Positions 7,260 to 56,995 of a DNA stretch of 64,000 bases are shown here, piece by piece; position 1 is the stretch's first letter; every line of letters begins with the position of its first letter. Position numbers and translations under genes: made by a program. This DNA is from Isoetes taiwanensis (lineage: Eukaryota > Streptophyta > Lycopodiopsida > Isoetales > Isoetaceae): contig JAJEKV010000181.1 of NCBI GenBank assembly GCA_021234155.1, forward strand, positions 62,001-126,000. The letters run 5' to 3'. The notes under the pieces are model-generated. The model did not search any database, was not told the DNA's origin, and worked only from the letters and a program-made list of their open reading frames with translations.

Positions 7260-7835
7260 ATCAAAGGCTGGGGTTGAGGCCAATAGTGCACGCATTGCGG
7301 GCCTGGAGACGGAGATGGAGTCTGCAACATTCCACGTGTTGCGCAGACAGTTGGTGATAGCAAAATAACAGATCACTGAGTTGGAGATCCAAGCACACCG
7401 GGTGGACGACAGCATCCGCTTGGTGCACTCTGAGAGACAACAAGACCGGCAGGTGCTCGCAGACATGCAGGCTCGCATGGATACCACGGACCGCGAGACG
7501 GGGCGAGGGGACCGGCGTAGCGTGAGACATTTGCGATCACGCCTCAGGCTCGCAAGATCGAGGTTGATGAGGCCAATGCCATGGCACGGCGCGCACAGGC
7601 CACACTCCAGTTGGAAGTTGAGGAGGCTACCGCTGCAAGACAGAGGTTGCAAACCGCCTTGGAAGTTAACCAGGCAGCACGGAAAGCCCGCCGGGAGAAG
7701 GATTTGGGACGGACCGAAATGCAGAGCTCCGTCTGTCATTGCCCGAAAGGCAAGGTCCTCGCACGCCGCATGAACACCGGGCAAGACCGCGACGGAGATG
7801 GCAAGACAGGGACCAAGCCTTGCAAGAGCTGAGCT
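7260..7835 (+). pseudogene. LINE B ORF1-like coiled-coil protein relic
   Basis: Two plus frames give long heptad-like stretches rich in E, Q, R, A and L: IAGLETEMES (about 7,290), QITELEIQAHRVDD (7,372 on), then ANAMARRAQATLQLEVEEA (about 7,575) and RQRLQTALEVNQAARKARR. Such coiled coils are typical of the nucleic-acid-binding ORF1 proteins of LINEs. No CCHC knuckle was seen. An internal stop near 7,367 and a frame change near 7,550 break it. The assignment rests on position and composition. Confidence 0.5.
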
Positions 7836-11900: not shown

Positions 11901-12075
11901 GTATATGTATATTTGTCGGCTACCCGGCCGAGGCTTGTTCTTGCGATGGTTTTCCCTCGTAAAGGGGGTTTTTGATCCGGTAGTAGCGAGCTTCTTTTGC
12001 ACCGTGTAATTTGGGTTCCATAGGCCGATTGGCCTCCGCGGACGATAAAAGAACCTTCCTTCCTTCCTTCCTTCC

Positions 12076-15990: not shown

Positions 15991-17203
15991 TTTCTTCGCT
16001 TTTGAGGATTCAAAGCACGATATTAGGCATGGGTTAGCTTCATTCGAATCTGATCCACCACAAGTAGAACAAGTTTTGAGAGCAAGGGCATATTAGATAT
16101 CATCAGACAATTTCAGGGCTAATAAAAATAGCACAAGGTTCATAGCATCTAATAGATTTTCTTTTTAAGAAGCTGTATGCTGAACATAAAAATATGGCAA
16201 GATATAATGCTGGAAATATTTTAGCAGATGCAAGGGCACTTAGCTTTAGTACCATTTCTTTATCCCTTCTTTATGGAGCAGGGAGGAAGCAAGTTAAGAT
16301 TCACGTGATTCTAATACTTCCATTCTCATTTCTTGGCCAGGCAAAAGAAGTATAGATGCAAACAATTCCATACCTCTGCAATAGGCTCTAGATTTGCAGA
16401 TTCCTCCTCTAAAATATGACTGCCTTGATTTGCTTTAACAACCTTCTGATATGCACCATTGATACACCAACATTCTTTGAACATATTATTCTCCACTTGC
16501 AATTGAAATGATATTTCGTAGATACACACTTATCATAGATACACATTGCACAATCACCATCTTGATCTGAATATATAAGCTTATGCCAGAAAAGTGTTGC
16601 TTTCTCGCAATGCCCCCCAAAACATGTTAGCTTGATCGATGCAACCAAGGCAAACTCAAGACCAAGAGCTAACGACAAGAACCAAAGAAAATCTCAAGGT
16701 ATATGAGACAGGCTAACACAAAAAAAAAGTAAAATGTTTTGAGTTGAAATGCCCTAATATTTTGATGAGCTGGTTATCTTCCGATGAAACTTACTACATG
16801 GAACTGCAATTTGTCAAGACTTTCAAAGAGTTTTACCCTTGCAAGTAAATTATGTTAAGTCATTGTACATGCTATACATGATGTGTGGTTTGGATAAATT
16901 ATATGAAACAAGATCTATCCTAAAATGTTCAGAAGAAATTATTTAGGCTCAATTCAACATCGATGTAAAACAAGATATCTCAATATGTTTGGGGAAATTA
17001 TGTACGCTCAACTTGACATCAATATGAAAATAATACCTATTTAAAAATGCCTGTCATATGCCAGCTGTCTTGGAAGTGTTTGGGTAATTTTGAGGAAACT
17101 CGACTCTTGAGGTCAATGAGTTTGGGTTATGCTTCATGTTTGTTTCAGGGCTTCATGTTTTGAGCCCTCAGTAGTCATTATCTAAGCTTGTCTAGTATCA
17201 TCA
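15990..17203. other. Intergenic, no assignable feature
   Basis: Contains an 89-codon minus frame (16,409-16,678) with several cysteines (CFGGHCEK, CAMCIYDKC) that I do not recognise; no flanking exon supports it. Related phrases ACAAGATCTATCC / ACAAGATATCTCA near 16,900-17,000 mark a small local duplication of about 60 bp. Confidence 0.35.
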
Positions 17204-17351
17204 TTACTGCAAAGGTTTTTCCCTTGAAAACCTTTCGAGGCAGGGGTTTTTTAATCCTAGTAGTAATGATTGTACTAGCCCATTGTATGGGTCCCATGAC
17301 CTATTGGTCTTCGTGGACGTTAAAAAAACTATTCTATTCTATTCTATTCCT
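17204..17351 (+). mobile_element. LINE B/C family 3' tip with hairpin module and (ATTCT)n tail
   Basis: The sequence carries the family's 3' UTR hairpin (ATCATTACT at 17,198-17,206, AGTAATGAT at 17,261-17,269; core with CGAAAACC... GGGGTTTTTTAATCC in between), then GCCCATTGTATGGGTCCCAT, CCTATTGGTCTTCGTGGACGTTAAA and a run of ATTCT pentamers. No RT sequence precedes it, so this is an extreme 5' truncation. Confidence 0.75.
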
Positions 17352-18630
17352 TGAAAACCAGTTGTGTTTCACATTTGCTTTCACTTATGTGGTAGCCCTC
17401 CCTTTTAATTCATGAGCAAGAGCTTCAGGCTAGAGTCGTTTTTGCCCCTTGGTGAAGATATAAATACACACTGGCATGTATAGCTATAGAGATACGAAAA
17501 TTTAGGGTCTAAAATGGTCAACCTAAAATCTAAAATCACATCAATGCTAAGAAAAATAGTTAGGGTTTTCTATTTTGTAAGGTAGAATTCAAAGCAACCT
17601 AAAATTAGGGAGCCATGTTGTGAAGTTGTGGTGCACATCTTACATAGTTGAGGCAAGTGCCAGTATTATTGTAAGGCATGCTCGCTTAAATTTGATTGTT
17701 TATTCACTTGGATAATTATGTTTTAATTTTCAATTTGTGACTATTCCTTGCCTTTATTTACTTATGTAATCTTCATAAAAGGCAAGATGACAATATCATT
17801 CTTTGTTGTCATTGCTCCAGATCCCTAGCTAAGCTCCTAGCTGTCTCATGGGCCTAGGTGGTCTCCTAAAAAAGTTAGTGCAACTTTTCTTCCTTGCTTG
17901 ATTTCTTTAACCGTTCCATAGTCTTTTACGACCAAAGATAAGATAAGATAAGATAAGATAAGATAAGAACAATAACTCATAGCTTGGGGCTTTACATGAT
18001 AAAGTTCATTCATAAAAGGAGACGAAATACTTGTAGAGGCATTCCACAATGCATAAGGCTCACTCGAATATCACAATAATAATATAGTAAGGGTCACTGC
18101 TGGTCTCAATTCTTGGCCCAGATGATCAATTGAAATGCGCAACAAAATATATTCGACAACTGGTATGAGAAGCTATAACCCAGGTCCTGCAAATAGCTAC
18201 TTAAAATAAATCTAAAAAAACAGATCAAAACTCACCGTAGTCTTCAATATTATTAACAACGAATCATGGTAGAGTGTCTTATACCATCCCCCTCCCTGCG
18301 TGGCTGATCTAAACTCACAGGTTCTTTATTTCACAGGTTGCTAAACTCTTTAGCTACATTTTGGAAGATAAAGGTAGTTCGTTGGCTACAGAGGATTTCG
18401 TTTTTAAATGTTCGGGGTTATGGTTTTGAATTGATTGTCAAAATATGACTCTGAACTATGATTTAAGCCACTTCACCCTCCGGCCATGGAGGGCAACCCT
18501 CCGTGCGCAGCACCTTGTTATTAATAGGATGCAGTACATAAAAAGGCACCTATATTATATCAACAAATGAAGACCTCGTTAGCAAATTTTGGAACATTGT
18601 TTAAGGACAAACATAGATATGCACATGAAG
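17352..18630. other. Intergenic, nothing beyond the microsatellite
   Basis: AT-rich DNA with no coding match. Only the AGATA array at 17,936-17,968 stands out. Confidence 0.4.
17936..17968. repeat. (AGATA)n pentamer microsatellite
   Basis: About six and a half tandem copies of AGATA. The same pentamer, in the same orientation, is the tail at 43,696-43,723, but no LINE tip is visible beside this run. Confidence 0.8.
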
Positions 18631-24904: not shown

Positions 24905-25001
24905 TATTATATTTGAGGTTTTGGGTTGTTCTAGCCCATTGTATGGGTCCCATGGCCTATTGGTCTCCGTGGACGTTAAAGAATTTATTTATTTTTATTC
25001 T
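24905..25001 (+). mobile_element. LINE B/C family 3' tip with T-rich (TTTA-like) tail
   Basis: GCCCATTGTATGGGTCCCAT, then GGCCTATTGGTCTCCGTGGACGTTAAA matches the tips at 17,290 and 50,655. It is followed by GAATTTATTTATTTTTATTC rather than ATTCT pentamers. No hairpin module is found upstream, so the truncation point is very close to the 3' end. Confidence 0.7.
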
Positions 25002-25073
25002 ATAAAACAATTTAAGTCATAACAACTAACATAATTAATCTTTGAGACTTATAATTCGTCTAAACTTCTAAAT

Positions 25074-25733
25074 TCTAGAATGGGGCTCGCATGAAAACGA
25101 CAAAAACCTCCCGATAGATAGGCTTCTCATTCATCTCAGCAGATTTTCTACAATGGTGGATAATGGATAGCCGCACACATGCAAACTACCCACGAAGAAA
25201 AATAATGGGAATGTCCAATTATACAACTTGGATACAATGCTAAAAGATGTTTGGTCTGTGTACCTGCCGAAAGCTTATCACTGGGATTAAAAAACACCGC
25301 ACTTTCTGGTTTTCGAGGAAAACCCCTAGTGATAAGCCTTTGGCAAGGGGCTTGGACAAACGTAAGGATGGGAATTCACTCCCAAAACACCCACGAATGG
25401 AGAAGTCGAAGCTCTAGCCACTTGCCAACCTGTACCTGCACATCACCAACACTAGAACAAATGTGACAAAACAAAAACATCTTCAAATAGAGGGGCTGGT
25501 CACGCGTGCCAGGCGACAAATACATTAAACAATTGTGGGGGGATGGGGGTGGGGTTCAAAGAATAGAGAATAAGGTACTGCTGAGAGAGAAGAGGAAGCG
25601 TCGATGAGACGTTGATGAAGAACCTCGCCTAATATAGCGATCTCCCAACCAGAGAAGGCATGCCATGCATGCATGCGAGCATGCATGCTCGCCCCCTCTA
25701 GAATCTCGATCCGAGGGCTCGGATCGATGGAAT
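25074..25733 (+). mobile_element. Helentron-like non-autonomous element H1
   Basis: The 5' end is TCTAGAATGGGGCTCGCATG. Near the 3' end a subterminal inverted repeat lies at 25,683-25,704 (GCATGCTCGCCCC, then CTCTAGAAT), followed by a perfect 10 bp hairpin (25,706-25,715 with 25,718-25,727) and the terminus GATGGAAT. The base before the 5' end and the base after the 3' end are both T, fitting T^T insertion. Internally it carries a 17 bp inverted repeat (25,265-25,281 and 25,329-25,345) around the hairpin core shared with LINEs. No coding capacity for Rep/helicase. Subterminal repeats plus a 3' hairpin are known features of Helentron/HINE elements. Confidence 0.65.
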
Positions 25734-27249: not shown

Positions 27250-29984
27250 TCAATGAGGAATTTCTTCAAGGATTTCTTTCAAATTCTTCCACAAAATTTT
27301 TCCAGTAGGTGATCTTGGAATATTGTCTATAAAGTATATAGCTCGTATCCTCTTATAATATATTACCTGCAAGCATATAAATGCATGGTATTAAAACAAG
27401 TTATAAATATTAAAAGAAAAAAACCAAAAGAGCAATAAGTGCATACAGTATTAGAGCTTAACCTGATTATTCACAAATTCAATAATGCTAGTCTCAGATA
27501 TAGTAGAATTGTTTGCCTTTACCACGAAAGCTACAGGTATATCTCCAGCTACCATATCTTGACGTCTATTCAACCAAATAATATATCAATATAAAACAAA
27601 TAGAAGTTGTAAAAACAAAATTGATATATACCCTACAACGGCAGCATCCGATATTAATGGGTGTGAGATCAGAATGGCCTCAAGCTCTGAAGGTGACACC
27701 TAATGAAATAGTTGAATTTTTAATATGCCCAAAGAAGAGATATTCTCACAAAACGTACATGGGAAAGTTCACACCTGATACCCTTTATACTTCAACACTT
27801 GTTTTAATCTGTCAGTCAAGAACATCTCTTCATTTTGGTTTATAAATCCTATATCACCAGTATGTAACCATCCCTCCTTGTCTACAGTAAGTGTTGTGGC
27901 CTCTGGATTGTCCAAGTACCCTAAGAAATAAAAGAAGAAGAATTAATTTCTAAGTCATGCCATATTTGGGCACATCTGAAAAATGGTCATAGACAACAAT
28001 TAGCAATAGATAACTCAAAATGTGTATGACAATTTTTTTGCATACATATGCACATCAACACAATTGACTTAGATATTTTGTAAGATATTGGAAACAAAGA
28101 AAATAAAAGAGAAATAAGATCTATTTCCTATTGTAATGTAGATGAAATGTGGATGAAGGATTCAAACTTGTGTATATGCAAATGAATAGAAGAGAATAGA
28201 GTAGTTCTGGAATAGAAGAGAATAGAGTAGTTCTGCGTGAGGCGAGTATGCATCTATGCATGCATCTATTGCATGCATTTTGGAGCCGTTAGATCATTTT
28301 AGAAAGAGCTACTTATTCAGGGTTTCTACATCAACTTCTCATCAACAGTTTCTACATATGGTGTAGCAATATCATAGTTATAGTATATTTGGTAAAGTAG
28401 CAAAAAAAAAAAAAAAAACTTGCTATAACAAGCACATTAGTAATTATTAAAAAATCTGGCTGTATAAAATAGAATATGAGCACTTCCTATTGAATGGTAC
28501 TAAACTATAAGGGTAATATTTGACAAATAGATATAGGACACAAGAGATGACATCATAAATTCTGGATTTCATGGTGTGGCTCATAACTTAGGTAAAAATC
28601 ATAATTTGTTCTGAAGAACTTTATAGATTGCGAAAAAAAAAAGGTCGTAAGGTTACCTTTCATTACTTGAGGTCCTCTGATCCACACCTCCCCGAGCTCA
28701 TTGTATGAAACTGATTTGTTGGTTTGTGGATCTACAATCTTTACTTCGCTATTACGAACCACTGTTCCACAAGATCCCCATTTACCCCTAATTGAGTATT
28801 TGGAAAATGCAAGAGACATAGATATAACTGGACCTGCTTCAGTCATGCCATATGCCTGTTTACTATCAGGTTAGTACAAAATTATTGTAACATAAATCAC
28901 TTACTCGGTATAATTTTACCTGAGCAAAAATGACATGCGGAAACCTTATTTGAATGGCATTCTCGATATCACGTCCTAGAGGAGCCGCACCACACATCAC
29001 CATTTTGAGGCTAGAAAGGTCGTAGTCCATGACTAAAGGGTTACTAGACATTTCTAATAGAACCGGTGGTACTAACATTGTCATGGTAACCTTGTACTTT
29101 TCAATGTGTGATAAGAGATTAACAAAATTATACTTCTTCATAATAACAACCGCTGCCCCAGCCCTCAATGCAGTGAGTAGAAGTGTGACAAGACAATAAA
29201 CATGATTCATGGGCAGCATGCACAAAATAACGTCTTTGGTAGAGATGTTGAGGTTTGGATTATCGCCCTCCACAACTTGAGAAATGCTTGAAGTTATATT
29301 TTTATGGGTCAACATGACACCTTTTGGCAAGCCACATGTCCCAGAGGAGTATAATACGGCAGCTGTGTCATCAACTTGTATGTTTATATGGGGCCAATTT
29401 TCCCCATTTGTATCCATTAAGACAGAAAAATCTTGGCAACCAGCTTGAGGATTATCAATTGTCAAAATGGGAATGTTTGATCTAGCAACTAGCTTGTGGC
29501 CATTAAGAGACTCAGTAATAATCATTTTAGCCTTGCTTGCTTTTGCTTGTTTGAATGCCTCAACATCATGAGCTGCCGGATGTGCAGTGGTGAAAGTTGC
29601 CCCTATCATTGCTATCCCAAGGACGAGCAAAGCAAGTTCAATGCAATTTGGAAGCATGATCATCACCACATCATGTTTTCCTATGCCAAATTTAGCTAGC
29701 CCTCTGGCAATTCTTATTGCATAGCTCCGAACTTCGGCATATGACACTTTCTTCCCTGAGGCTCCATCAATGAGACAATCTTTGTGTGGGTAAGCTACAG
29801 ACTTTTGCAAACAGAATTCAGCTAGGGGGAGAGTATTAAGTAAATCTATGTCGACTAGTTTGGATTTAAAGATGTACTCCCTATCCTCAAATGGATGATC
29901 TTTCATGTCTACAATGGGAGAAAGGCTATGGTTAGAAAGCTCGACCTTGGGAAGTTGAAGAGATGGCTTGATACTTGTGTCCAT
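27250..29984 (-). CDS. 4CL: 4-coumarate:CoA ligase (4CL), six exons, apparently intact
   Basis: Encodes an ATP-dependent acyl-CoA synthetase that adenylates 4-coumarate-type acids and transfers them to CoA, the branch point to lignin and flavonoids. Exons (minus): 29,984-28,920; 28,855-28,657; 27,920-27,775; 27,699-27,632; 27,565-27,463; 27,366-27,250. All introns are GT-AG and phases fit, giving 565 residues, normal for 4CL. Visible: N-terminal [23 protein letters not shown]-binding box [17 protein letters not shown] (about 213-228; the family usually has SSGTTGLPKGV); CGAAPLG (331-337); YGMTEAGPV (about 357); GEVWIRG in the box II position (family GEICIRG); [24 protein letters not shown]; and PTGKILWK with the catalytic lysine. 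A TATA box lies about 110 bp upstream. Substrate preference is not known; a 4CL-like ligase with another substrate is possible. Confidence 0.92.
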
Positions 29985-30090
29985 GCTTGATGTTGAAGAA
30001 ATGGCTTGATGTTGAAGAGATGGCGCGATGTTGGCGTGATGGCTTGATGGCTTGATGTTGAATTGATGCCTTGATGCTTGATGCTGATAA

Positions 30091-30098
30091 TATTTATA
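30091..30098 (-). promoter_or_regulatory. TATA box of 4CL
   Basis: TATAAATA on the minus strand, 107 bp before the 4CL ATG. The leader that follows is made of GCATCAAG/CCATCAAG repeats. The same arrangement is kept in the duplicate at 34,489-34,496. Confidence 0.65.
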
Positions 30099-30619
30099 GA
30101 TAATATCTATAGGGAACCAAATATGATAGGATGGGAGGAGGAAGAAGATTTCAAAGAAGAATTGGAGTTCAGCTTTGGATAGTCCAAGGTAACTTCTTTA
30201 GGTTTCTTATGTTTTCCTCGTTTAAAAGAAGGCGAGTGGCATTCAAGTTAGGACGTGAATTTGTGTTGTAAATCACAATTGCCAGTTTTCAGGTAGTTGA
30301 CAAATTTTGTTTAGACGCGGTAATGGGTGGGACCGTGGGAACAATCAATAGGAAGACTGGACCGATCTGCATGACCGGATATTAAGACTGAAGATTTTTT
30401 ACTAGAATAAGTGAAGCCTGTTTCCAATGAAAATTCGATATGAAAAACCTGCATGTCGAAAGGTTTTTGGGTCAGGATTTCGGCAATGTACAGTATTAAC
30501 CGGCAAATGGAGGTCCCATTTGGAGGCTTCTGGTTGACATACAGCAGGTAGATCACCAGACGCCAAACTGGCCTCCATTGGCTTAATAACCACGTTTTTT
30601 AATAGATATTTCTTTTCCA

Positions 30620-30820
30620 TCTATGGAGACACTGTTACAAATTTGCATCAGTATATTTTATATAGCCCACGTTTCTCATCATGGAGAGCAGTTTGCACCC
30701 CTTCAGATAAGAGTTTCCATTAAAGGAAAGCTATTCCATTTATGGAACATTTGTTACAAATTTGCATCAGTATATGTGATATAGCCCACGTTTCTCATCA
30801 TGGAGAGCAGTTTGTACCTA
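30620..30820. repeat. Tandem duplication upstream of 4CL, about 119 bp period
   Basis: GTTACAAATTTGCATCAG, then ATATAGCCCACGTTTCTCAT and GGAGAGCAGTTTG, occur at 30,634 and again at 30,753. The same tandem pair is present in the duplicate (about 35,020-35,215), so it predates the segmental duplication. Confidence 0.8.
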
Positions 30821-31094
30821 GATAAGAGGTTTATACAATTTAGATCCATTCCATTTGATATGATCAACCTGCAGTATAAAATCTGTGGTCTTATCAACAG
30901 TTCGCCTTGCAGAAAATTCTTTTCGCAAGGAGGTTTCTGCTATAATATTCAAGAGTCCAAATTGGTTCTTTTCTTTTACTCTGATGATAAGTTGATGAGA
31001 CAGTTAAAAGAGTTGAAGTTCAATTTGATGAATGATTCTTTTAATTTCTATATCATGATATTCAGCCACAGCAGTACTATTGGCAGTATTATAG

Positions 31095-31237
31095 TACGTT
31101 ACGGCTCTGTGATTCTTTGAATGTGCTACAGTGAGACCAGGCCCAAATCCAAGGAGGAAACGTACTTGCGCCCTTCGCCTGTGGTCTTCATGTTCATCTT
31201 CTTAGACCTGGTTATCATCTGATCTAGCACGAAAATC
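31095..31237 (-). pseudogene. Chalcone-synthase-like relic 1, C-terminal end only
   Basis: The minus strand encodes the C-terminal end of a type III polyketide synthase: VIFVLDQM-like sequence, TTGEG in one frame and RFLLGFGPGLTVAHS in another. GFGPG is the conserved loop of the family. The rest was removed where copia sequence begins at about 31,238. The same segment continues as relic 2 in the duplicate. Confidence 0.75.
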
Positions 31238-31239
31238 AC

Positions 31240-32394
31240 AGAAGCAACCGCCACTATGAATTCCAGAATTAGCTCCACAGACTTAGGAGCAACCCTAGGC
31301 TTGATGCTCGATCAAACAGCAACAACTAAGGATACATGTCATTGCTTGTAGGTTCCAATACTCCCCCTCAAGAATGACAAGTGCCAAATGACTCAAAGAC
31401 TCTACTGAATTCTACAACACAAGCTGAAATCAGAGAACATAAGGAAACTGGTGTAACTTCAACAACAACAAAAAACCCCTTCAGCCAAGTGAGGCAGAGC
31501 TCCTCAGCCAAATAGGAGCTATCGAATAGTACTTGATAATGGTCTAAGTACCAGCCTGCTCTACTAGTACCATGCCCATTTCATGAACACATTCTACAAA
31601 CCTTTTGCCAAAGGCTTGGTTATGCATCTGCCATGAAGTGTGTACTCAGATGTTTGATAATAACCTTGCCTTCCTCCACCTTCTCTCGTGTGAAGTGGTA
31701 TTGGGTTTCAATATGCTTTGCTTTAGTGAAATTACCAGGATTTTTCACTAAACATACTGCAGCCCTGTTGTCATTCATGATGGTGGTCGGTTCAACTTGT
31801 TCTGCTCCAATGCTTTTTTAGAAGCCTTCGTGAACTAAATGGCCTCCTTAGTGGCAGCACAAATAGCCATGTATTCGGCCACATGTACCTTACAGCAGTA
31901 GCCTTTTGTTTCCTGCTGACCAGCTAACAAATTCCCTTGCAGCATGAAACAATAACCTGTTCTAGACTTCCTGAAGCTGTGATCTCCAGCATAATCAGCA
32001 TCAACAAAGCCTGCTAGTGAGAGGGGATGCTCCACCTGTTTATGATATGCAATACCCAGACGGGAAGTGTGCTGTAAGTACCGTGAAGATGCGCTTTTGA
32101 CTGCTTGCCAGTGAGCAAGTCCCGGATTTTCAAGAAACTGGCTAACTGAAATGACACTTTCAGCTATGTCTGACGGCTACAGACCATAAAATGCATTAAG
32201 GAACCAACCACGCTTGTATGGAATATCTTTCATAGCCCTCATGTCATCTGGAGGTCTGAGGACACATTTCAAAAGCTTAAGTCACTGGCTGCAGCAGGGG
32301 TACTAATCTCTTTAGAGTGAAGCATATTGCACCTTGCAAGAAGTGACTCAATGCCTTTAAGCTGTGTAATGTAACACTATGGCTGATGGGATCT
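31240..32394 (-). mobile_element. Ty1/copia fragment: RT end and RNase H
   Basis: The minus strand reads the copia connection and RNase H region: FLENPGL-like sequence, HPLSLAGFVDADYAGDH, RKSRTGYCFMLQGN (32,035-31,925), AEYMAICAATKEAI (31,880-31,835), then KAKHIETQYHF-like sequence in another frame (about 31,700). It is 5'-truncated and frameshifted. It lies exactly between the two duplication copies and truncates a gene on each side. Confidence 0.8.
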
Positions 32395-33007
32395 TTTTGC
32401 ATACATATGCACATCAACACAATTGACTTAGATATTTTTGTAAAATATTGGAAACAAAGAAAATAAAAGAGAAATAAGATCTATTTCCTATTGTAATGTA
32501 GATGAAATGTGGATGAAGGATTCAAACTTGTGTATATGCAAATGAATAGAAGAGAATAGAGTAGTTCTGGAATAGAAGAGAATAGAGTAGTTCTGCGTGA
32601 GGCGAGTATGCATCTATGCATGCATCTATTGCATGCATTTTGGAGCCTTTAGATCATTTTAGAAAGAGCTACTTATTGGGGGTTTCTACATCAACTTCTC
32701 ATCAAGGTTTCTACATATGGTGTAGCAATATCATAGTTATAGTATATTTGGTAAAGTAAAAAAAAAAAAAAAAAGCTTGCTATAACAAGCACATTAGTAA
32801 TTATTAAAAAATCTGGCTGTATAAAATAGAATATGAGCACTTCCTATTGAATGGTACTAAACTATAAGGGTAATATTTGACAAATAGATATAGGACACAA
32901 GAGATGACATCATAAATTCGGATTTCATGGTGGGCTCATACTTGGTAAAAATCATAATTTGTCCTTAGAACTTTATAGATTCTGCAAAAAAAAAAATTAA
33001 AGGGTTA

Positions 33008-34367
33008 CCTTTCATTACTTGAGGTCCTCGATCCACACCTCCCCGGGCTCATTGTATGAAAACTCGATTTGTTGGTTTGTGGATCTACAATCTTTACTTC
33101 GGTTATTACTGTTCCACATAGTTCCACAAGATCCCCATTTACCCCTAATTGAGTATTTGGAAAATGCAAGAGACATAGATATAATCGGACTGCCGACCAT
33201 GCCATATGCCTGATTTACTCATCCAAAGGCATAGTACAAAATTATTGTAACATAAATCACTTTACTCGGTATAATTTTACGAGCAAAAATGACATCTTAT
33301 GAAACCTTATTTGAATGGCATTCTCAATATCGCTCCTAGAGGAGCCGCACCACACATCACCATTTTGAGGCTAGAAAGGTCGTAGTCCATGACTCCTAAA
33401 GGGTTACTAGACATTTCTAATAGAACATACAAGTGGTACTAACATTGTCATGGTAACCTTGTACTTTTCAATGTGTGATAAGAGATTAACAAAATTATAC
33501 TTCTTCATAATAACAACCGCATGATTCCCCTCAATGCAAGTGAGTAGAAGTGTGACAAGACAATAAACATGATTCATGGGCAGCATGCACAAAATAAAAC
33601 CTTTGGTAGAGATGTTGAGGTTTGGATTATCGCCCTCCACAACTCCAGAAATGCTTGAAGTTATATTTTTATGGGTCAACATGACACCTTTTGGCAAGCC
33701 ACATGTCCCATGAGGATGCCATATCTACTTAAATGTGTCATCAACTTGTATGTTTATATGGGGCCAATTTTCCCCATTTGTATCCATTAAGGCAGAAAAA
33801 ATCTTGGCAACCATATTTTGAGGATTATCAATTGTCAAAATGGGAATGTTTGATCTAGCAACTAGCTTGTTTGGCCATTAAGAGACTCAACAATAATCAT
33901 TTTAGCCTTGCTTGCTTTTCCCCAAAGGTTTGAATGCCTCAACATCATGAGTCTTGGGATGTGCGGTGGTGAAAGTTGCCCCTATCATTGCTATCCCAAG
34001 GACGAGCAAAGCAAGTTCAATGCAATTTGGAAACATGATCATCACCACATCATGTTTTCCTATGCCAAATTTAGCTAGCCCTCTCTGGCATTCTTATTGC
34101 ATAGTCAGAACTGGTGGACACAATATGACACTTTCTTCCACGAGGCTCCATCAATGAGACAATCTTTGTGTGGGTAAGCTTGTGCTTTTGCAAACGAGAA
34201 TTCAGCTAGGGGAGAGTATTAAGTAAATCATCCATGTTTGAGTTTGGATTTAAAGATGTACTCCTATCCTCAAATGGATGATCTTTCATGTCTACAATGG
34301 GAGAAAGGCTATGGTTAGAAAGCTCGACCTTGGGAAGTTGAAGAGATGGCTTGATACTTGTGTCCAT
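33008..34367 (-). pseudogene. 4CL pseudogene, exons 1 and 2 only
   Basis: The minus strand parallels 28,657-29,984. The ATG is at 34,367. Exon 1 carries many short indels and replaced tracts, for example near 34,150-34,250, 33,710-33,735, 33,520-33,535 and 33,425-33,435. Recognisable pieces: [17 protein letters not shown] (about 33,697), [19 protein letters not shown] and, in exon 2, [20 protein letters not shown] (about 33,185-33,125). Exons 3-6 are missing. As assembled it cannot encode 4CL, though some lesions may be consensus errors because the flanks are nearly identical to copy 1. Confidence 0.85.
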
Positions 34368-34488
34368 GCTTGATGTTGAAGAAATGGCTTGATGTTGAAG
34401 AGATGGCTTATGTTGTCATGTGATGGCTTGATGGCTTGATGTTGAATTGATGCCTTGATGCTTGATGCTTCATGCTTGATGCTGATAA

Positions 34489-34496
34489 TATTTATA
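34489..34496 (-). promoter_or_regulatory. TATA box of the 4CL pseudogene
   Basis: TATAAATA on the minus strand, in the same setting as 30,091-30,098; a few leader repeats differ (one extra GCATGAAGCATCAAG-type unit). Confidence 0.55.
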
Positions 34497-35514
34497 GATA
34501 ATATCTATAGGGAACCAAATAAGATAGGATGGGAGGAGGAAGAAGATTTCAAAGAAGAATTGGAGTTCAGCTTTGGATAGTCCAAGGTAACTTCTTTAGG
34601 TTTCTTATGTTTTCCTCGTTTAAAAGAAGGCGAGTGGCATTCAAGTTAGGACGTGAATTTGTGTTGTAAATCACAATTGCCAGTTTTCAGGTAGTTGACA
34701 AATTTTGTTTAGACGCGGTAATGGGTGGGAACAATCAATAGGAAGACTGGACCGATCTGCATGACCGGATATTAAGACTGAAGATTTTTTACTAGAATAA
34801 GTGAAGCCTGTTTCCAATGAAAATTCGATATGAAAAGCCTGCATGTCGAAAGGTTTTTGGGTCAGGATTTCGGCAATGTACAGTATTAACCGGCAAATGG
34901 AGGTCCCATTTGGAGGCTTCTGGTTGACATACAGCAGGTAGATCATGCCAGACGCCAAACTGGCCTCCATTGGCTTAATAACCACGTTTTTTAATAGATA
35001 TTTCTTTTCCATCTATGGAGACACTGTTACAAATTTGCATCAGTATATTTAATATATCTCCACGTTTCTCGTCGTGGAGAGCAGTTTGTACCTTCAGATA
35101 AAAAGTTTCCATTGAAGGAAAGTTATTCCATATATGGAACATTGTTACAAATTTGCATCAGTATATGTGATATAGCCCACGTTTCTCATCATGGAGAGCA
35201 GTTTGTACCTAGATAAGAGGTTTATACAATTTAGATCCATTCCATTTGATATGATCAACCTGCAGTATAAAATCTGTGGTCTTATCAACAGTTCGCCTTG
35301 CAGAAAATTCTTTTCGCAAGGAGGTTTCTGCTATAATATTCAAGAGTCCAAATTGGTTCTTTTCTTTTACTCTGATGATAAGTTGATGAGACAGTTAAAA
35401 GAGTTGAAGTTCAATTTGATGAATGATTCTTTTAATTTCTATATCATGATATTCAGCCACAGCAGTACTATTGGCAGTATTATAGTACGTTACGGCTCTG
35501 TGATTCTTTGAATG

Positions 35515-47704: not shown

Positions 47705-49633
47705 GTGTATCCCCTACAGATATCGAGAAGGAAAGACATGCAATGACAACCCATTGCATGCACTAGAAGTGCTTATGATCACATCCAAGAGTGGGAATGG
47801 TCTTTTATTTCCTAAGGTATTACAGTCAATAGTAATATCATATATGATGGGACAAATGCCTATAAGGTGAACCTGGTTTGTGAATATTGAAACGTTTTAT
47901 TCTAGAATGGGGCTCGCATGAAACCAACAAACCTCCCGATAGATAGGCTTCTCATTCATCTCAGCAGATTTTCTACAATGGTGGACAGTGGGTAGCCGCA
48001 CACATGCGAACTACCCACGAAAAATAAAGGGAAAATCCAATTATATCATTTGGACCCCAAAAAATACAATGCTAAGAGATGTGTGGCTGGTGTACCTGCC
48101 GAAAGCTTATCACCGGGATTAAAAAACCCCGCCCTTTCGGGTTTTCGAGGAAAAACCCTAGTGATAAGCCTTCGGCAAGGGGCTTGGACAAACGTAAGGC
48201 ATAGAAATCACTCCCAAAAACCCACGCATGGAGAAGTCAAAACATGCCGTTAAGCCAACCCAGACGCACATCACCAACACAACAAAACGAGACAACACAA
48301 ACCTCCCGAGTGGAGGGGCTGATCCGCGCCGTGCCACGCGACAAAAAACAAAAACCTCTTCAAATAGAGGGGCTGGTCACGCGTGCCAGGCGACAAATAC
48401 AATAAACAAAGAAGGGGGGGAGGGTGGGTTCAAAGAGAATAAGGTACTGCTGAGAGAAGAGGAAGCGCCGATGAGACGTTGATGCAGAACCGCGCCTAAA
48501 ATAGCGAAACCTCAACCAGAAAGGGCATGCGCTGCATGCATGCAGGCAAGACATGCATGCTCGTCCCATTCTAGAATGTCGATCCGATGTCTCGGATCGA
48601 TGGGATTCTAGAATGGGGCTCGCATGAAATCAACAAACCGCCCGAATACCAGAGAACTTCCTTATCAAACTAGAATCGAGGACGAAGGTCACAGGATGAA
48701 GGCTAAAGAAGGGCCAAGGCCGAGAAAGGACATGCCACAGCATGAAAGAAACGCCAAATGGGCCAAACCAAGCAGGAAGAAGCCCCTCCCCTGCCTGGAA
48801 ACAATTCAAAGAGAATAAGGTACTGCTGAGAGAAGAGGAAGCGCCGATGAGACGTTGATGCAGAACCGCGCCTAAAATAGCGAAACCCCAACCAGAAAGG
48901 GCATGCGCCGCATGCATGCAGGCAAGACATGCATGCTCGCCCCATTCTAGAATGTCAATCCGATGTCTCGGATCGATGGGATTCTAAAAGTTGCAAGCCA
49001 ATAGCTATTTAAGCTTTGATAAAAGCTTTTCAATTTGAGTTTTGCACTGGTAATGAAAAATCTGATTGAAGGATTTGTAGGGTTGTTTGATGCATGAATT
49101 CTTAATTCCTCGTGCTACATATAGACAGTTAAGCAGAATGTTTCTGACAAAATTGATTTAGTTGCAACTTCCAGTTGGGATTTTGACACTGTTAAGATCC
49201 AATTTTGGTTAGCATATTATTTGAAATAAGTAAGGCCCAAGTAAGGACTTCTGATGCTCTTGTAGGGCCGCTGGGAGACAGATGAAACAGTTGAAGAAGC
49301 AGCTTGCCGCGAGGCCCTTGAAGAAGCAGGCGTTCGTGGTTTTCTCAAGGTTTGTCCTCTTAAAGTATATCTTTAAACATGATAACAGGGCTCCACGTTG
49401 AAAGATTTAGATGTCACAGTGCATTATTGCATGATGTGAGGCTTGCATGTATGTGGTTTAACTTAGCAGCATAACCATGCAGGAGAATTTGGGATCGTGG
49501 GACTTTAAGAACAAACGACAACAAAGTGATCTCAGTCCTGAAGGTCTGTGTCGAGCTCATATGTTTGCCCTTGCGGTGACAGAGCAACTTGATTCTTGGC
49601 CTGAACAAAGCACCCGTAAACGGCAATGGATTG
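47705..49633 (+). CDS. Nudix hydrolase (plant NUDT12/13-like), three exons seen, ends incomplete
   Basis: Nudix enzymes cleave nucleoside-diphosphate-linked compounds; this plant subgroup resembles diphosphoinositol polyphosphate / diadenosine polyphosphate hydrolases. Exons 47,705-47,816, 49,266-49,349 and 49,483-about 49,633 join in phase with GT-AG introns. Exon 1 gives GCIPYRYREGK (G from the split codon) and ALEVLMITSKSGNGLLFPK. Exon 2 is the complete Nudix box GX5EX7REUXEEXGU: GRWETD, E, TVEEAAC, REALEEAGV. Exon 3 gives LGSWDFKNKR, AHMFALAVTEQLDSWPEQ and RKRQW, all in the family's order. Metal-binding glutamates are present. The start exon and the last short exon were not found. The first intron (1,449 bp) contains two Helentron-like elements. 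No lesion is seen in the coding parts, so it may be active. Confidence 0.88.
47901..48606 (+). mobile_element. Helentron-like element H2, in a Nudix intron
   Basis: Starts TCTAGAATGGGGCTCGCATG after a T. The subterminal inverted repeat GCATGCTCGTCCCATTCTAG (48,556-48,575) precedes a 9 bp hairpin (48,579-48,587 with 48,592-48,600, loop TGTC) and the end GATGGGAT. Next base is T. Internal inverted repeat 48,097-48,113 / 48,161-48,177 (one mismatch in 17) encloses the core shared with LINE 3' UTRs. High similarity to H1 over the whole length. Confidence 0.7.
48607..48982 (+). mobile_element. Helentron-like element H3, head-to-tail with H2
   Basis: Begins TCTAGAATGGGGCTCGCATG exactly where H2 ends. 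About 45 bp at the 5' end and about 175 bp at the 3' end match H2; the middle (48,650-48,805) is unrelated. Subterminal repeat at 48,931-48,953, hairpin with one mismatch (about 48,955-48,976), end GATGGGAT followed by T. Shared ends with different interiors and end-to-end tandem insertion are typical of rolling-circle elements. Confidence 0.7.
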
Positions 49634-50651: not shown

Positions 50652-50751
50652 GTATTTATTGTATGGGTCCCATGACCTATTGGTCTCTGTGGACATTAAA
50701 AAAACTATTCTATTCTATTCTATTCTATTCTATTCTATTCTATTCTATTCG
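50652..50751 (+). mobile_element. LINE B/C family 3' tip with (ATTCT)n tail
   Basis: ATTGTATGGGTCCCATGACC, then TATTGGTCTCTGTGGACATTAAAAAA is the family's terminal block. About nine ATTCT pentamers follow at 50,705-50,750. Truncated right at the tip. Confidence 0.75.
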
Positions 50752-52415: not shown

Positions 52416-54989
52416 AGAATAGAATAGAATAGAATAGATTGTTTAGCATCCACGGAGACCGATTGGCCTATGGGACCCAAACAAAAAAGAGAGCAGCAAG
52501 CGTATTACTGACAGGATTAAAAAACCCCCACCCCGAAGGGTTTTCGAGGGAAAAACCTTAGCAGTAATAAGTATGCTGGCACACTGTACAATTGTATAGG
52601 ACATTTCAATACCGTCCCAGAAGACACAACTGAGTCCGTGCATCCATAACCTCCTGGAGGTATGACCCCAACAAACCCACTGACGCCGTAGTCAATAACT
52701 GATGCAACAGCTGGCCAGGCACTAGTAATCGAACATATCACTCTCGGATATGGGCAAACGCTGGGCAGATCTGGAGGGCATGACATTCATCCTCAATGGT
52801 GCCCTGGTGGCAACACTGGCAAAGCCTTTGCTCTCGTGCTTCCCGAGCCCAACGTCCTGTTTCAATGCGGAGGCGATGTGCACCAGTGCGAATGGAAGCT
52901 ATAAGTCTGCGCTTCTTCATGGGCAGCTGGGTGTACAAGTACTGGTGTGGGCCTCTCGTGAGCCTAGGATTGACTTGCTGCTGATAGTGTGCTAGCTTAA
53001 CGTGCGTCAGAGCATCTGCATCCCAGAGCTTGCGAAGGAAAGTAGCATCTAGGTATAGCTTAAGTGCCTTGTGATCTTTCTTTGTCCTTACATGTACGCA
53101 TCTGTTTGCCTGTACAACCCAGCGTGAGAACCACTGAGCTTGCTTGTCCTTCCAGCAGGATTTCAGGCGTTGGGGACCCATCGCCATGGCCAAAGCAAGG
53201 TTGGACAAACGGGTATCAGCCATAGGGACCACCTTCTGGAAGTAAATGATATGGCGTTCCAATGCAGCCCGTTGAAGGGGTAGAAAGCCTGTCTCCTGGA
53301 GTAGGATCTGGTATGGAACTGTGGACTTCACCCCAAGGGCTTGTGCCAAGAAGGCCTTCTGCATCTGCTCGAGGTCATTCCAGGTGTTGAGGGATATCAC
53401 CGGGCCCCACACTTCTGCCCCATACAAAAGGACCGGCTCGACCAAGGCCCGAAACAAGTGTGACTGGTGGCCCCAGGCATACAACTCTGCCTTGTGGCTG
53501 TTGTTCTGCATGGCATATAGTGTTTTCCAACCCGCCGTGACCCGCAACCTGATGGCAGCATCCCAATGGGTGGTAGTTGAGAACTCGATCCCCAAGTACT
53601 TGTAGGTCGGAGCCACCTCTACATCTTGTCCCTGGTAAGTGAATGAGGGAAGCCTTGGCTGAGGGGACGATGAAACTAGCAGCATCCTAGTTTTGGCCAA
53701 GTTAACTCGCATGTCAGTGAAGCGGCAAAAAGTGTCAAGAGCATCCAGGTGACGTTACATGTCCTCTGAAGTATAGGCCAGGAGGTTGACATCGTCAGCA
53801 TATATGAGTTGCCAGATTGTGTGATGCATGAGATGGGCGCCCGCACCTCCATGCTCAGAGAGCCAATCCTCCAGTTGGTCAATGTATAGGCCAAAGAGTG
53901 TGGGGGAGAAGGGGCAACCCTGACGCACTCCAATACTACTGATTACCGGCTGTCCTGACGATGTGATACGGCCTGAGCATGCCTCGTATAGCCTATATAC
54001 TGCATTCTGCAAGTCAAGGGGGGGTCCCCAGCTGCCGCAGTCTGTCCCATAGCATGTCGCAGGGCACTGTGTCAAAAGCTTTTGCAAAATCCACGAAACA
54101 ACAGTACAGGTTTTGCCGGCGATTCCTACTATCTTCAATCAATGTGCGCAGAGTGAAGATATGATCAATGGTGGAATGCCTGAGCCGGAAACCTGCCTGT
54201 GTAAGAGCTCGCACATCTGCCTCCTCTGCCCATATTGTCAGCCGCTGCTCAAGGATGCCAACCAATAGTTTTGCAAAGAGAGAGCTGACCATAATAGTAT
54301 GGTAGTTGGCCGGGCATTGAGGGTCCCCTGCCTTGTATATGGGCACAACTCTACTAGTGGTCCACTGGAGGGAAGCCTTCTTGCAATGCTTTATTGAAAC
54401 AATGCCGTGAGGACAGGCACCAGTGGAGGCCCAGCCCATTTCAGAAGTTCCACCTGCATGCCATCTAAATCTGATGCCTTCCCATTAGCTAGACGTTGTA
54501 GGCCCATGATGACATCCCCCTCTGTGATGACCAGAGCCATGCCTATCTGTGGAGGGACTGGTATCTGGCCCCCGGGCAGGTCGTAAAGCTGTTGCAAGTA
54601 CTGTACCCATGGCTCCGAGGTGATGTTCCCTGTGGGCTGTGCAGTCTTGCTCAAGATCCTTCTCCAGAATGTCTTGGGGTGCCGATCCAGGAGACCAAAC
54701 ATCTGTTGCTGATGCTCTGCGAGGTATCTGGCTTTCTTGTTCTTGAGAAAGGAGCGGTATTGACTGATGGCCTGTGGGCAGGAGGTGGGATCAGTGACTT
54801 GCCGGAGTGTGCGTTTGAGCTCCTGACACTTATCATCGAACCATCTGTTGCGGGGAAAGGTGGTAGCGCCCGAGGTTCGCCGTGAGCGGCCTCTCCCAAA
54901 GCATCTCTTAGTAGCTGTCAGACGCAGGTGAGTCAGCTGAGCAGATTGCTCTTGAAGTGTGGGGAGACTAGATTTTTTAAACAACATTG
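52416..54989 (-). mobile_element. LINE C: 5'-truncated LINE, same family as LINE B, (ATTCT)n tail
   Basis: Minus-strand frames 54,993-54,391, 54,439-54,014, 54,138-53,755 and 53,712-52,738 join into one RT protein: RFLANGK-like LQRLANGKASDLDGMQVELL, HSTIDHIFTLRTL, FVDFAKAFDTVPCDMLWDRL (motif A), IGVRQGCPFSPTLFGLYIDQ (motif B), YADDVNLLAY (motif C), YKYLGIEFSTTTHWD, EPVLLYGAEVWGPV and a C-terminal zinc motif CQCCHQ...ECHALQIC (about 52,800). Only about three frameshifts separate it from an open frame, so it is younger or better assembled than LINE B. The 3' UTR (52,737-52,440) holds the hairpin module (52,505-52,570); the tail is ATTCT pentamers. The endonuclease is lost by 5' truncation. It interrupts a hAT relic. 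Confidence 0.9.
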
Positions 54990-55845
54990 ACACTAATTAA
55001 TTAAAACTTAATTGTTCTATATGAAGCTTAACTTTATCCCTAAATACTTTTACATCAGCATTTTTGAAATCACACTTTTGATAATGACCACCTCTGCCAC
55101 AATTTTGCCTTACATGCATCCAGATAAACTTACCTTTCACATGGATGCAAAGGATGCCACTGGATCGTACCGAAAAAAGCTTGATGGTATTCCAATTGCT
55201 GCCATTTTATTCCATAAGTAAAAATGGTCTTTTGTGGACTGAAAACAAGTTTGCCCTATTCTTATATTATCAGACACTGCTCAAGATCCGTCTGCATCAT
55301 TTTTCTAGCCAATGTATACTCCGGTATAAAGATATTCTTGTCCTGTAAAATCTTTATCAAATAATTCAACTTCGATAAGAGGGCCTGCATGGCAAACAAA
55401 GTGAGAATAGTTTCAAGTCTGTCATCATTGTTAAAAGCTCATTTGCTTTTTCTGAAGTGCTACGATCTTCATCAAAACTCAGTTCATCTATTAAACCAAC
55501 TAATGAGACAAACTCCCACAAAGGCATTTGGCAGATCCATTTAAAGAAATCCAGCATGTACTAACATCCTTCAAAAGCTTTTTACCATCTGTGAACCCTT
55601 CGGCAAAAGACCGAAATGCTGCACACCTTTGAGAACTCTTAGAAAACAACTTATAAGATGTACGAACAAGCATTTCTACCTTAGCAACGTAAGGAGAATT
55701 TAAAACTGTTTTATAAGCCAGATTTGTCCGATGACTCATGCAATGTATGATACTCATGTAAGACGCAAGTTTACTTTGCAGCCTTGCACCCAGTCCAGTT
55801 CTATTGCCTTGCATTACGGCAGCGCCATCAGCACCAAGACATATC
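54990..55845 (-). pseudogene. hAT transposase relic, catalytic part (ZNF862-like)
   Basis: The minus strand reads LGADGAAVMQGNRTGLGARL (about 55,835-55,775; GADGA holds a catalytic Asp), IIHCMSHRTNLAYKTVL (about 55,750-55,700), LVRTSYKLFSKSSQRC (about 55,665) and LLKDVSTCWISLNGSAKCL (about 55,580-55,525; the family has T-R-W, here T-C-W). Further decayed sequence runs to the LINE C border at 54,990. This is the domain order of ZNF862/DUF4371-type hAT transposases. It continues at 52,412. Confidence 0.8.
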
Positions 55846-55849
55846 TATG

Positions 55850-56995
55850 ACCAATGCTCACTGTACAATATTTTCTGAAGTTGCAGATTACATAACTGCT
55901 ATCTTAAACAACATTATTGATCTCTGGCCAGAGGTTTTCCATTGGAATTCAGCCGAGTTAAAACTTTGACATGGTAATAAGATTAACCCATGTTGGTTGA
56001 TACATTCTTCCTATGACTTTGTTTTAAACCTTCCAAAAAGGATATACAATGTCTTCTCCATTGCCATCACCAAATGTTTTGAAAACATTCCTCTCGACGG
56101 GGAGGAAGGAATGATTGACATTATGAAGGATAAAGCTGGCCTAGTTTGGCAGTTCATGGCTGCGAAGAAACCATTATCTCAACTATTTATTAGATGGACT
56201 GGGACATCCTTTGTCACCAAGTGGATGAAGACTAATGAAGACCCTCAAAATAAGTGGTCTGTTGTATATAGAATGGATTTCTTAAGAGTCCATAGCTGGT
56301 TACTTACTCACTGTTACCTTCAGATGGGCAGTGATATTTGGAGACAAAGAAAAGGCATTCCAATGGGTTTTTCTAGCAGTCCTGCTTGGTGTAACCTATA
56401 TTTAGCTTGGTATGAACTCAGATTTATTATGAAACTGGCATATCTAAATAGAGTGGTAGACATTTCGAGATTCCAATTTGCTTACAGATATATTGACGAC
56501 TTGTGCGTAATAAATGGGTGTGACTTGATGGAATTCTTCTCCATTCACTCGGACTGCACAGTATACAATATGTCCCACATAGGGATAAAGAATGAAACAG
56601 AATACAAGCCTGGCTCTAATGTGGGCCATAGAATAAACTTCCTCAACATTACTATTCAAGTGTTAGACCCAAACAGTGGTTTATTTCAATATAACAGATA
56701 TGATAAGAGGAGTAAGCTGGATTTTATGGTACTCAAATTTATCAAGGCAAGTGGATGCATGGTCAAGCATGCAAGGTAGTAATATCCCAAGTTTTTCCAT
56801 ACATTTATGCTCATTCAAACTTGGATAAAGCAGTTGTGGATATGTATCACCTTATCATGGCATTCTGCAATAATGGTTTTCTCAAAAGAGATGTAACTAG
56901 AACCGTCCTCAATACTTTGAAAAATAACAACTTCCCAAGCTTACCTTTTGACATTGGGGACTTCACAAGATCTCTCGCAAAATTGCTATAAGTCT
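55850..56995 (+). pseudogene. Penelope-like reverse transcriptase relic
   Basis: The plus frame 55,997-56,779 and, after one frameshift near 56,765, the frame to 56,991 encode an RT: ITKCFENIPLDG (motif A region, about 56,065-56,100), WRQRKGIPMGFSSSPAWCN (motif B, about 56,338-56,395), FAYRYIDDLCVIN (motif C, 56,477-56,515), GHRINFLNITIQ (about 56,624) and a C-terminal TLKNNNFPSLPFD. KGIPMG with RYIDD is characteristic of Penelope-like elements rather than LINEs or LTR elements. The motif A aspartate expected before ITKCF is alanine. No GIY-YIG endonuclease domain follows. It may be an endonuclease-lacking, Coprina/Athena-type PLE; the exact group is not certain. Confidence 0.7.

Follow-up and report, generated by a model that had tools for sequence, protein, structure and literature searches.

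A covarying ENE-like RNA hairpin common to LINEs, a non-coding retroposon and a Helentron-like transposon of Isoetes taiwanensis

Why would retrotransposons and a rolling-circle DNA transposon carry the same hairpin? The question arises from a 64,000-nucleotide stretch of the lycophyte Isoetes taiwanensis (assembly GCA_021234155.1, contig JAJEKV010000181.1, positions 62,001 to 126,000; hereafter the window), in which a first-pass annotation of the bare sequence had noted one hairpin core in three long interspersed nuclear elements (LINEs) and in two copies, H1 and H2, of a Helentron-like element (H). It suggested that the hairpin might be a LINE reverse transcriptase recognition signal captured by H, or the target of a common host or replication factor. 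The hairpin is present at all five places named (48.1, 25.3, 52.5, 17.2 and 11.9 kb). From its sequence and predicted fold we consider it highly probable that it is an ENE (element for nuclear expression), an RNA stability element that clasps a stretch of adenosines, probably the poly(A) tail; we place it in the ENE kind because sequence, structure and position all match ENE anatomy.

Intact copies all follow one plan, which in the LINE sense reads P1-bulged A-NGG-UUUUU-(C)CCUCG-AAAA-CCC-UUCG/GAAA-GGG-CGGGG(G)-UUUUUU-AAU-CCN-P1', where P1 and P1' are the arms of the outer stem. Stem P3 is CCUCG with one extra C in LINEs, and stem P4 is CCC or CCU, capped mostly by UUCG in LINEs and by GAAA in H. 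An internal loop between the stems consists of a 5' strand of five uridines (U5) and a 3' strand of six (U6), and G-C pairs close it both below (NGG/CCN) and above (CC/GG). Of 79 parsed copies, 75 have exactly five uridines in the 5' strand (the parser allowed U3 to U6) and 77 have A as the base bulged between P1 and P2 (the parser allowed any base). The 3' strand is U6 in 76, a count that is partly built in because 63 of the 79 copies were retrieved by a pattern fixing U6; among the 12 parsed copies reached from LINE tails that were chosen blind to the ENE, it is U6 in nine and U5 in three, i.e. U5 or U6 in 12/12. Pairs flanking the U loop are always or nearly always G-C in the H and LINE alignments, a constancy partly built into pattern and parser, with the P2 closing G-C pairs and the 3' G's of P3 likewise partly fixed by the search pattern. 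An AAAA bulge between P3 and P4 is kept in LINEs, in H and in a third element, T, described below.

These features resemble those of known ENEs, whose U-rich internal loop takes up adenosines into a decay-blocking triple helix: those of the poly(A) tail in the PAN RNA of Kaposi's sarcoma-associated herpesvirus, and those of an encoded A-rich tract in MALAT1 (PMC4246217, PMC11411715, PMC10855403). According to the same sources, MALAT1 forms nine U.A-U triples and one C+.G-C triple with an A-rich tract encoded at its 3' end; PAN and MALAT1 are viral and mammalian noncoding RNAs, whereas the carriers here are plant transposons. A study of Evade (Copia93) of Arabidopsis places an ENE in the 3' untranslated region (UTR), in which the U-rich loop and adjacent G-C pairs are essential for the triplex, demonstrates a triplex with A20 in vitro, and reports that deletion of the ENE lowers RNA stability, extrachromosomal DNA and new insertions (PMC12501189). 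As described there, Evade is like the Isoetes elements in having a 3' UTR stem-loop of a plant retrotransposon with a U-rich internal loop and adjacent G-C pairs, and differs from them in being a long terminal repeat element with four U-rich tracts, whereas Isoetes has a single U5/U6 loop in LINEs, in a LINE-tailed retroposon and in a Helentron-like transposon, in thousands of copies (PMC12501189).

In the mechanism we propose, the U5 and U6 strands would form a U.A-U triple helix around some five adenosines, most likely supplied by a tail added after transcription. A tail clasped in this way would be hidden from deadenylases and 3' exonucleases, so that the RNA of the element would live longer and transposition might benefit. 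Tycowski, Shu and Steitz reportedly described ENEs in many plant and fungal transposable elements in 2016, and are said to have given a limit of about five base triples, which agrees with the U5 strand here. An ENE distributed across element classes is most likely unusual; among the papers listed by a literature search of titles and opening abstracts (full texts and most subscription papers lay outside its scope), none concerned ENEs in LINEs or Helentrons.

A covariance model trained on 56 rows, including four of the window copies, recovered all five hairpins in a scan of the window (E values in Table 1), LINE B being the only one of the five outside the training set; the sixth-best match had E=0.89. 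A descriptor free of core sequence (U5+ strands, G-C closing pairs and two stems), with tolerances fixed after the copies had been inspected, matched the window three times, at 17.2, 48.1 and 52.5 kb, and the reversed window not at all, while the decayed copies at 25.3 and 11.9 kb fail it. Genome searches covered the 1,658,258,908-base assembly (1,110 contigs), with the reversed pattern as control. The half-core GGATTAAAAAACCCC with at most one mismatch occurs at 17,392 places (415 reversed), the exact two-part core GGTTTTTCC-N14..26-GGGTTTTTTAATCC at 7,497 (0 reversed) and a LINE tail pattern with at most three mismatches at 11,252 (0 reversed). Forms with a single A after the U strand (U5-AUCC) are rare, with 13 places against 0 in the control, and by eye nearly all belong to one lineage.

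Copies with the strict core were taken from the first 100 places listed (contigs C1-C35), which is not a random sample, as 30 loci and 40 further places picked from the remainder. An anchored parser fitted 63 of these 70; with 12 of 20 LINE tail sites and four window copies they make up the 79 parsed copies. By a short rule with family C as the default, the 63 comprise 21 H-type copies, 40 LINE copies (17 of family F, nine of G, eight of C and six of D) and two of element T. The combined alignment (A2) has 56 rows, 54 of them distinct: the 55 distinct parsed sequences less locus L114, in which the 5' arm is replaced, plus two window copies identical to others. The H alignment (A3, 16 rows) excludes L108, which has an upper-stem insertion, and most identical copies. 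The LINE alignment (A4, 31 rows) excludes L001, L020, L072, L079, L086, L090, L111 and L115, which have broken, replaced or shortened parts, as well as the T copies L019 and L024, L114 and identical copies. P3 was counted in A3 and A4 only, because it is misregistered between H and LINE rows in A2; an upper-stem parser read 18 of 32 distinct upper sequences and missed the family F type, which A4 covers.

Covariation above background, the test proposed in the first-pass annotation, is strong both between and within families. In A2 (54 distinct rows, 500 shuffles), 87.4% of P1/P2 cells are paired (shuffled mean, 73.4%); double changes (one on each side of the pair) affect 135 cells, compared with 47.3 after shuffling, and the covariation score of 0.456, compared with 0.216 after shuffling, is reached by 0/500 shuffles. 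When the 3' arm is slid by one to three columns, paired cells fall to 50.6% or less and the score to 0.173 or less. Related copies inflate these measures, and the slid control and the separate analyses of H and LINEs therefore matter. H alone (15 distinct rows) is 95.9% paired, with double changes at four pairs (11 cells) and wobble intermediates in the rows L110 and L118. LINEs alone (30 distinct rows) are 91.5% paired, with double changes at eight pairs (40 cells) spread over P1, P2, P3 and P4; in family F, P3 and P4 have each changed a C-G pair to U-A (7/30 LINE rows each). Within H and within LINEs alike, cells, percentage and score were each reached by 0/500 shuffles, so that covariation supports a secondary structure in the combined, H-only and LINE-only sets. 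The outer arms, said earlier to differ between families while still pairing, do keep their pairing, but the LINE arms are variants of one another (ATTACT/AGTAAT, by eye) and the H arms alone are truly different.

Selection for structure had been suggested for either RNA or single-stranded DNA, and it is the RNA half of that suggestion that the data favor. In the strand comparison that had been called for, the hairpins of H1 and H2 lie on the minus strand and have the identical RNA sense to the LINE copies. Among distinct H rows, a U.G pair is conserved at the P3 pair 32-51 (15/15) and at the P1 pair 20-66 (12/15), and among LINE rows at the P3 pair 28-48 (26/30); these sites are the third P3 pair and the P1 pair adjoining the bulged A. 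Fold energies are lower for the ENE strand than for its complement in H2 (-49.7 vs -39.7), family F (-33.4 vs -24.6), LINE C (-26.7 vs -23.2) and LINE B (-26.4 vs -8.8). From the conserved U.G pairs and these energies, the structure most likely acts in RNA of the U-rich sense. Helentrons, like Helitrons in general, move via single-stranded DNA, which would suit a structure working as single-stranded DNA, for instance when H is transferred by rolling circle or in contact with a replication factor. We nevertheless regard a DNA role as extremely improbable: the conserved U.G pairs become A.C mismatches on the opposite strand, LINEs retain the identical element, and the tandem unit H2b has both transposon ends but no hairpin (no match in the covariance-model scan of the window).

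LINE copies of the ENE sit close to the 3' end of their element, in sense, as judged from element ends rather than transcripts, and LINE mRNA would thus bear the ENE in its 3' UTR. The identity of these elements follows from a reverse transcriptase frame upstream on the same strand and a repeat tail at the 3' end. Only one of the three frames of LINE C in the window matches Pfam (RVT_1, 31.5 bits), and a 473-aa frame at the genome locus L015, which by eye encodes the protein of the window frame at 52,738-53,754, stops about 35 nt short of P1 of the ENE on the same strand. Beyond the ENE the LINE continues with a linker, then a second conserved hairpin (GUCC..GRCC..GGUC..GGAC, by eye), then a short A-tract, and ends in the repeats (TTCTA)n or (CTTCC)n; the ENE lies about 50 nt before the A-tract and repeat tail. 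Two roles are conceivable for the A-tract, as partner to the ENE or as signal for polyadenylation. When one copy from each of four LINE families was compared, the ENE core and the tail hairpin had mean pairwise identities of 0.93 and 0.82, whereas the surroundings reached 0.38 (a 375-column block upstream), 0.31 (immediately before the ENE) and 0.59 (between ENE and tail hairpin); the best-matched pair, C and G, reaches 0.98 in the core vs 0.58 and 0.42 outside it. Broken and truncated copies account for part of the low flanking identities. The 20 LINE tails chosen blind to the ENE came from a list of 100 places without a mismatch and so lean to family C. Both U strands precede the tail in 18 of them (at most two and at most four edits), one has the 3' half only and one, truncated, has none; GGTTTTTCC is exact in 13/20. 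LINE B, which lacks P4 and the AAAA bulge, lies in a GC-rich context and ends in (CTTCC)n, resembling a diverged copy of LINE family D.

A strongly conserved hairpin in the 3' UTR could be the recognition signal of the LINE reverse transcriptase, captured as such by H, and the non-coding retroposon T, which has both the hairpin and (by eye) a LINE-like tail, could be read in the same way. However, the second hairpin separates the ENE from the repeat tail in four LINE families, and T has a similar structure beside its repeats, about 0.45 kb from the ENE. Moreover, H is not retroposon-like, having Helentron-type ends, and still keeps the ENE under covariation, and the G-C-clamped U5/U6 loop is accounted for by triplex formation, not by reverse transcriptase binding. 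Given the ENE anatomy and a separate conserved hairpin nearer the terminal repeats, the recognition-signal claim of the first-pass annotation finds no support here, and we think it very improbable; the tail hairpin, rather than the ENE, is the better candidate for the recognition site. The alternative it offered, a common host factor, comes close to the ENE reading, in which the partners would be poly(A) and the decay machinery.

Element T is a 2.2-kb segment shared by the loci L019 and L024, with no 100-aa frame in the L024 copy. It carries the ENE, and its end, which by eye looks like the LINE tail hairpin, gives way to (TATTC)n repeats; it is probably a LINE-parasitic non-coding retroposon. 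Its upper stem is intermediate, with a 5-bp P3 as in H and a UUCG-type loop as in LINEs. The element common to LINEs, the non-coding retroposon and H, covarying in both main classes, fits a homologous ENE, which was most likely exchanged between retrotransposons and a rolling-circle DNA transposon. Capture between classes, as proposed earlier, is plausible because the upper stem is near-identical, but the 45-nt core is too short for its direction to be derived. Close to its 3' end, the L019 copy of T is interrupted by 0.32 kb of inserted sequence with inverted ends. At L127 (3,951-6,531, plus strand), HTH_psq and DDE_1 transposase frames, which we take to be pogo-like, lie beside T and seem not to belong to it; the DDE_1 transposase, which is upstream of T, was rejected as a part of T, being outside the segment common to the second T copy.

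T and H also bear on what the ENE clasps. In the manner of the MALAT1 3' end, it could hold the short encoded A-tract before (TTCTA)n and stabilize LINE RNA without polyadenylation. The tract lies about 50 nt 3' of P1, and an A4-A8 run occurs in 70/78 loose tail matches (70 of 78 rows viewed, with some off-target on either side of the cut). Family G copies examined carry A4 only, however, the run of the window LINE C is broken, T has AUAAAU and yet keeps its ENE, and H copies have no common A5 tract downstream of an ENE that is kept all the same. The tract is also perhaps a plain plant polyadenylation signal (AUAAAA-like), which counts against the encoded partner as well. We judge the A-tract to be a rather unlikely partner; as T and H have no A5 tract at the matching place, the poly(A) tail is the more general one.

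H units carry two copies of a palindromic subterminal inverted repeat (subTIR), ATTCTAGAAT, one at a terminus and one about 27 nt short of the opposite end (partly decayed at the right end of H1); the second is followed by a hairpin, TCGATCCGA..TCGGATCGA, near the 3' terminus. Palindromic subTIRs at the 5' terminus and near the 3' terminus, together with a 3' hairpin, are shared with HINE (Helentron-associated interspersed element) and DINE-1 elements (PMC4067079). In H2a the two 3' features lie about 27 and 5 nt from the 3' end, slightly below the ranges of 38-60 and 8-35 for non-autonomous Helentrons of mites in the same paper, where Helentron Rep genes are mostly on the plus strand, with one on the minus (PMC4067079). 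By this fit to the non-autonomous Helentron plan, H reads 5' to 3' along the plus strand of the window. Its ENE, about 0.2 kb in from the 5' terminus, is oriented the opposite way, which sets H apart from the HINE/DINE-1 elements described there (PMC4067079). The ENE is consequently expected in a minus-strand transcript, and the homologous antisense ENE would serve such a transcript, ending near the 5' terminus of H.

Frames were listed for three (L003, L005 and L011) of seven H loci with 1.5 kb upstream, and the sole frame that clearly codes is of Copia type and lies next to H in L005. Nine H copies, when aligned, contain by eye nothing coding-like. To look for an autonomous partner of H, 150 of 1,813 PF14214 (Rep) candidates were scored, and none of 30 Rep loci and six downstream stretches carries the core or an H terminus. 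An ENE match in the Helitron locus L066 (27.6 bits) was rejected because it belongs to a decayed copy of the LINE C type that has a LINE tail and repeats. We entertain as possible, though somewhat short of an even chance, the wider proposal that a single ENE lineage moved among LINEs, a LINE-parasitic non-coding retroposon and a rolling-circle DNA transposon, reached on the order of ten thousand copies, and serves in H a minus-strand transcript that matters to the element.

Could the fold be another kind of structured RNA, such as a protein-binding site, an export element or a ribozyme, in which the U-rich internal loop is incidental? The conserved AAAA bulge, which is absent from the ENE descriptions consulted, would suit such a role, as would the bulged A under P2 and the AAU after U6, none of which those descriptions need; the features that an ENE requires, on the other hand, rank among the most constant, and Rfam offered no relevant match. 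We consider a different structured RNA quite improbable. A self-cleaving ribozyme was considered for its combination of conserved core and covarying arms, and set aside with no relevant Rfam match and no known catalytic core that we recognized. An H-type pseudoknot (GGUUUU with AAAACC, CCUCG with CGGGG) was rejected because P4 (CCC/GGG or CCU/AGG, with a UUCG or GAAA loop) is backed by compensated changes; the GGUUUU/AAAACC pairing itself has no covariation count.

Several results weigh against an ENE that clasps the poly(A) tail. The LINE tails end in (TTCTA)n or (CTTCC)n rather than poly(A), and because of these 5-nt repeats polyadenylation of LINE RNA is an assumption. Rfam 15 at its gathering score had no match in the window, although whether that release includes an ENE family was not established, and in five genome loci gave six unrelated matches only (E 3.3-9.1). 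Two of the five covariation measures are unexceptional in A2 and within H: the number of pairs with double changes was reached by 78/500 shuffles in A2, and the number of further pair types by 350/500, with the corresponding two measures reached by 97/500 and 433/500 within H; within LINEs the figures are 7/500 and 127/500. The complement of the decayed H1 hairpin folds slightly better than the ENE strand (-38.7 vs -37.1), and the minimum-energy fold of family F pairs the U5 strand with the AAAA bulge, a competing fold in which the loop is not open. No gene or transcript was found in H to own the antisense ENE, and six PF14214 Helitron loci, followed for 6 kb downstream of Rep, have no ENE of their own (the last ~3 kb of L064, about half of it, is N).

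If the ENE assignment is correct, a single lycophyte genome contains thousands of natural ENE variants, a large resource from which to read the sequence requirements of triple helices that clasp poly(A), and an RNA-protection module can pass between retrotransposons and a DNA transposon. An ENE kept under covariation in a non-autonomous Helentron-like element also raises the question of why a DNA element would need a stable RNA.

Table 1. Positions in the window of the ENE-like hairpins and of the LINE and Helentron-like features around them.
Feature	Positions	Strand	Remarks
ENE-like hairpin of H2	48,101-48,173	-	E=2.8e-20; U5 strand, P3, AAAA bulge, P4 with GAAA tetraloop, U6 strand, P1 arms; stem reaches 48,095-48,179
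ENE-like hairpin of H1	25,269-25,341	-	E=1.1e-15; upper stem decayed
ENE-like hairpin of LINE C 3' UTR	52,499-52,573	-	E=1.6e-22; sense strand of the LINE
ENE-like hairpin of LINE tip, family F	17,198-17,272	+	E=1.5e-21; compensated P3 CCUUG/CAGGG and P4 CCU/AGG
ENE-like hairpin of LINE B, diverged or decayed	11,932-11,992	+	E=4.6e-6; U4/U5 loop, simple upper hairpin; without P4 and AAAA bulge
Broken LINE C reading frames upstream of ENE, same strand	52,738-54,996	-	RVT_1 in 54,014-54,484
Conserved LINE C tail hairpin (TGGGTCCCATAGGCC...GTGGATG), then (TTCTA)n on minus strand	52,447-52,479	-	
LINE tip tail hairpin, A7 tract, (TTCTA)n repeats	17,290-17,349	+	
LINE tail without ENE, 5'-truncated copy	24,944-24,975	+	
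LINE tail without ENE, 5'-truncated copy	50,664-50,695	+	
Non-autonomous Helentron-like (HINE-type) unit H2a	47,899-48,605	+	palindromic subTIR 47,900; second subTIR 48,567-48,578; 3' hairpin 48,579-48,600
Tandem Helentron-like unit H2b, directly joined to H2a, no ENE	48,606-48,981	+	ends and 3' hairpin 48,955-48,976
Helentron-like unit H1	25,072-25,733	+	subTIR 25,073; 3' hairpin 25,706-25,727; right end approximate

Two other features of the window were recorded. A tandem duplication of about 4.4 kb (28,076-35,441, blocks 96-100% identical) includes a gene for an AMP-binding enzyme (PF00501), presumably of the 4-coumarate-CoA ligase type. An open frame at 55,970-56,779 on the plus strand has an RVT_1 match below the cut-off (19.8 bits) and an RYIDD-like motif, is unlike the LINE type found elsewhere in the window, and is perhaps a Penelope-like or other divergent reverse transcriptase.

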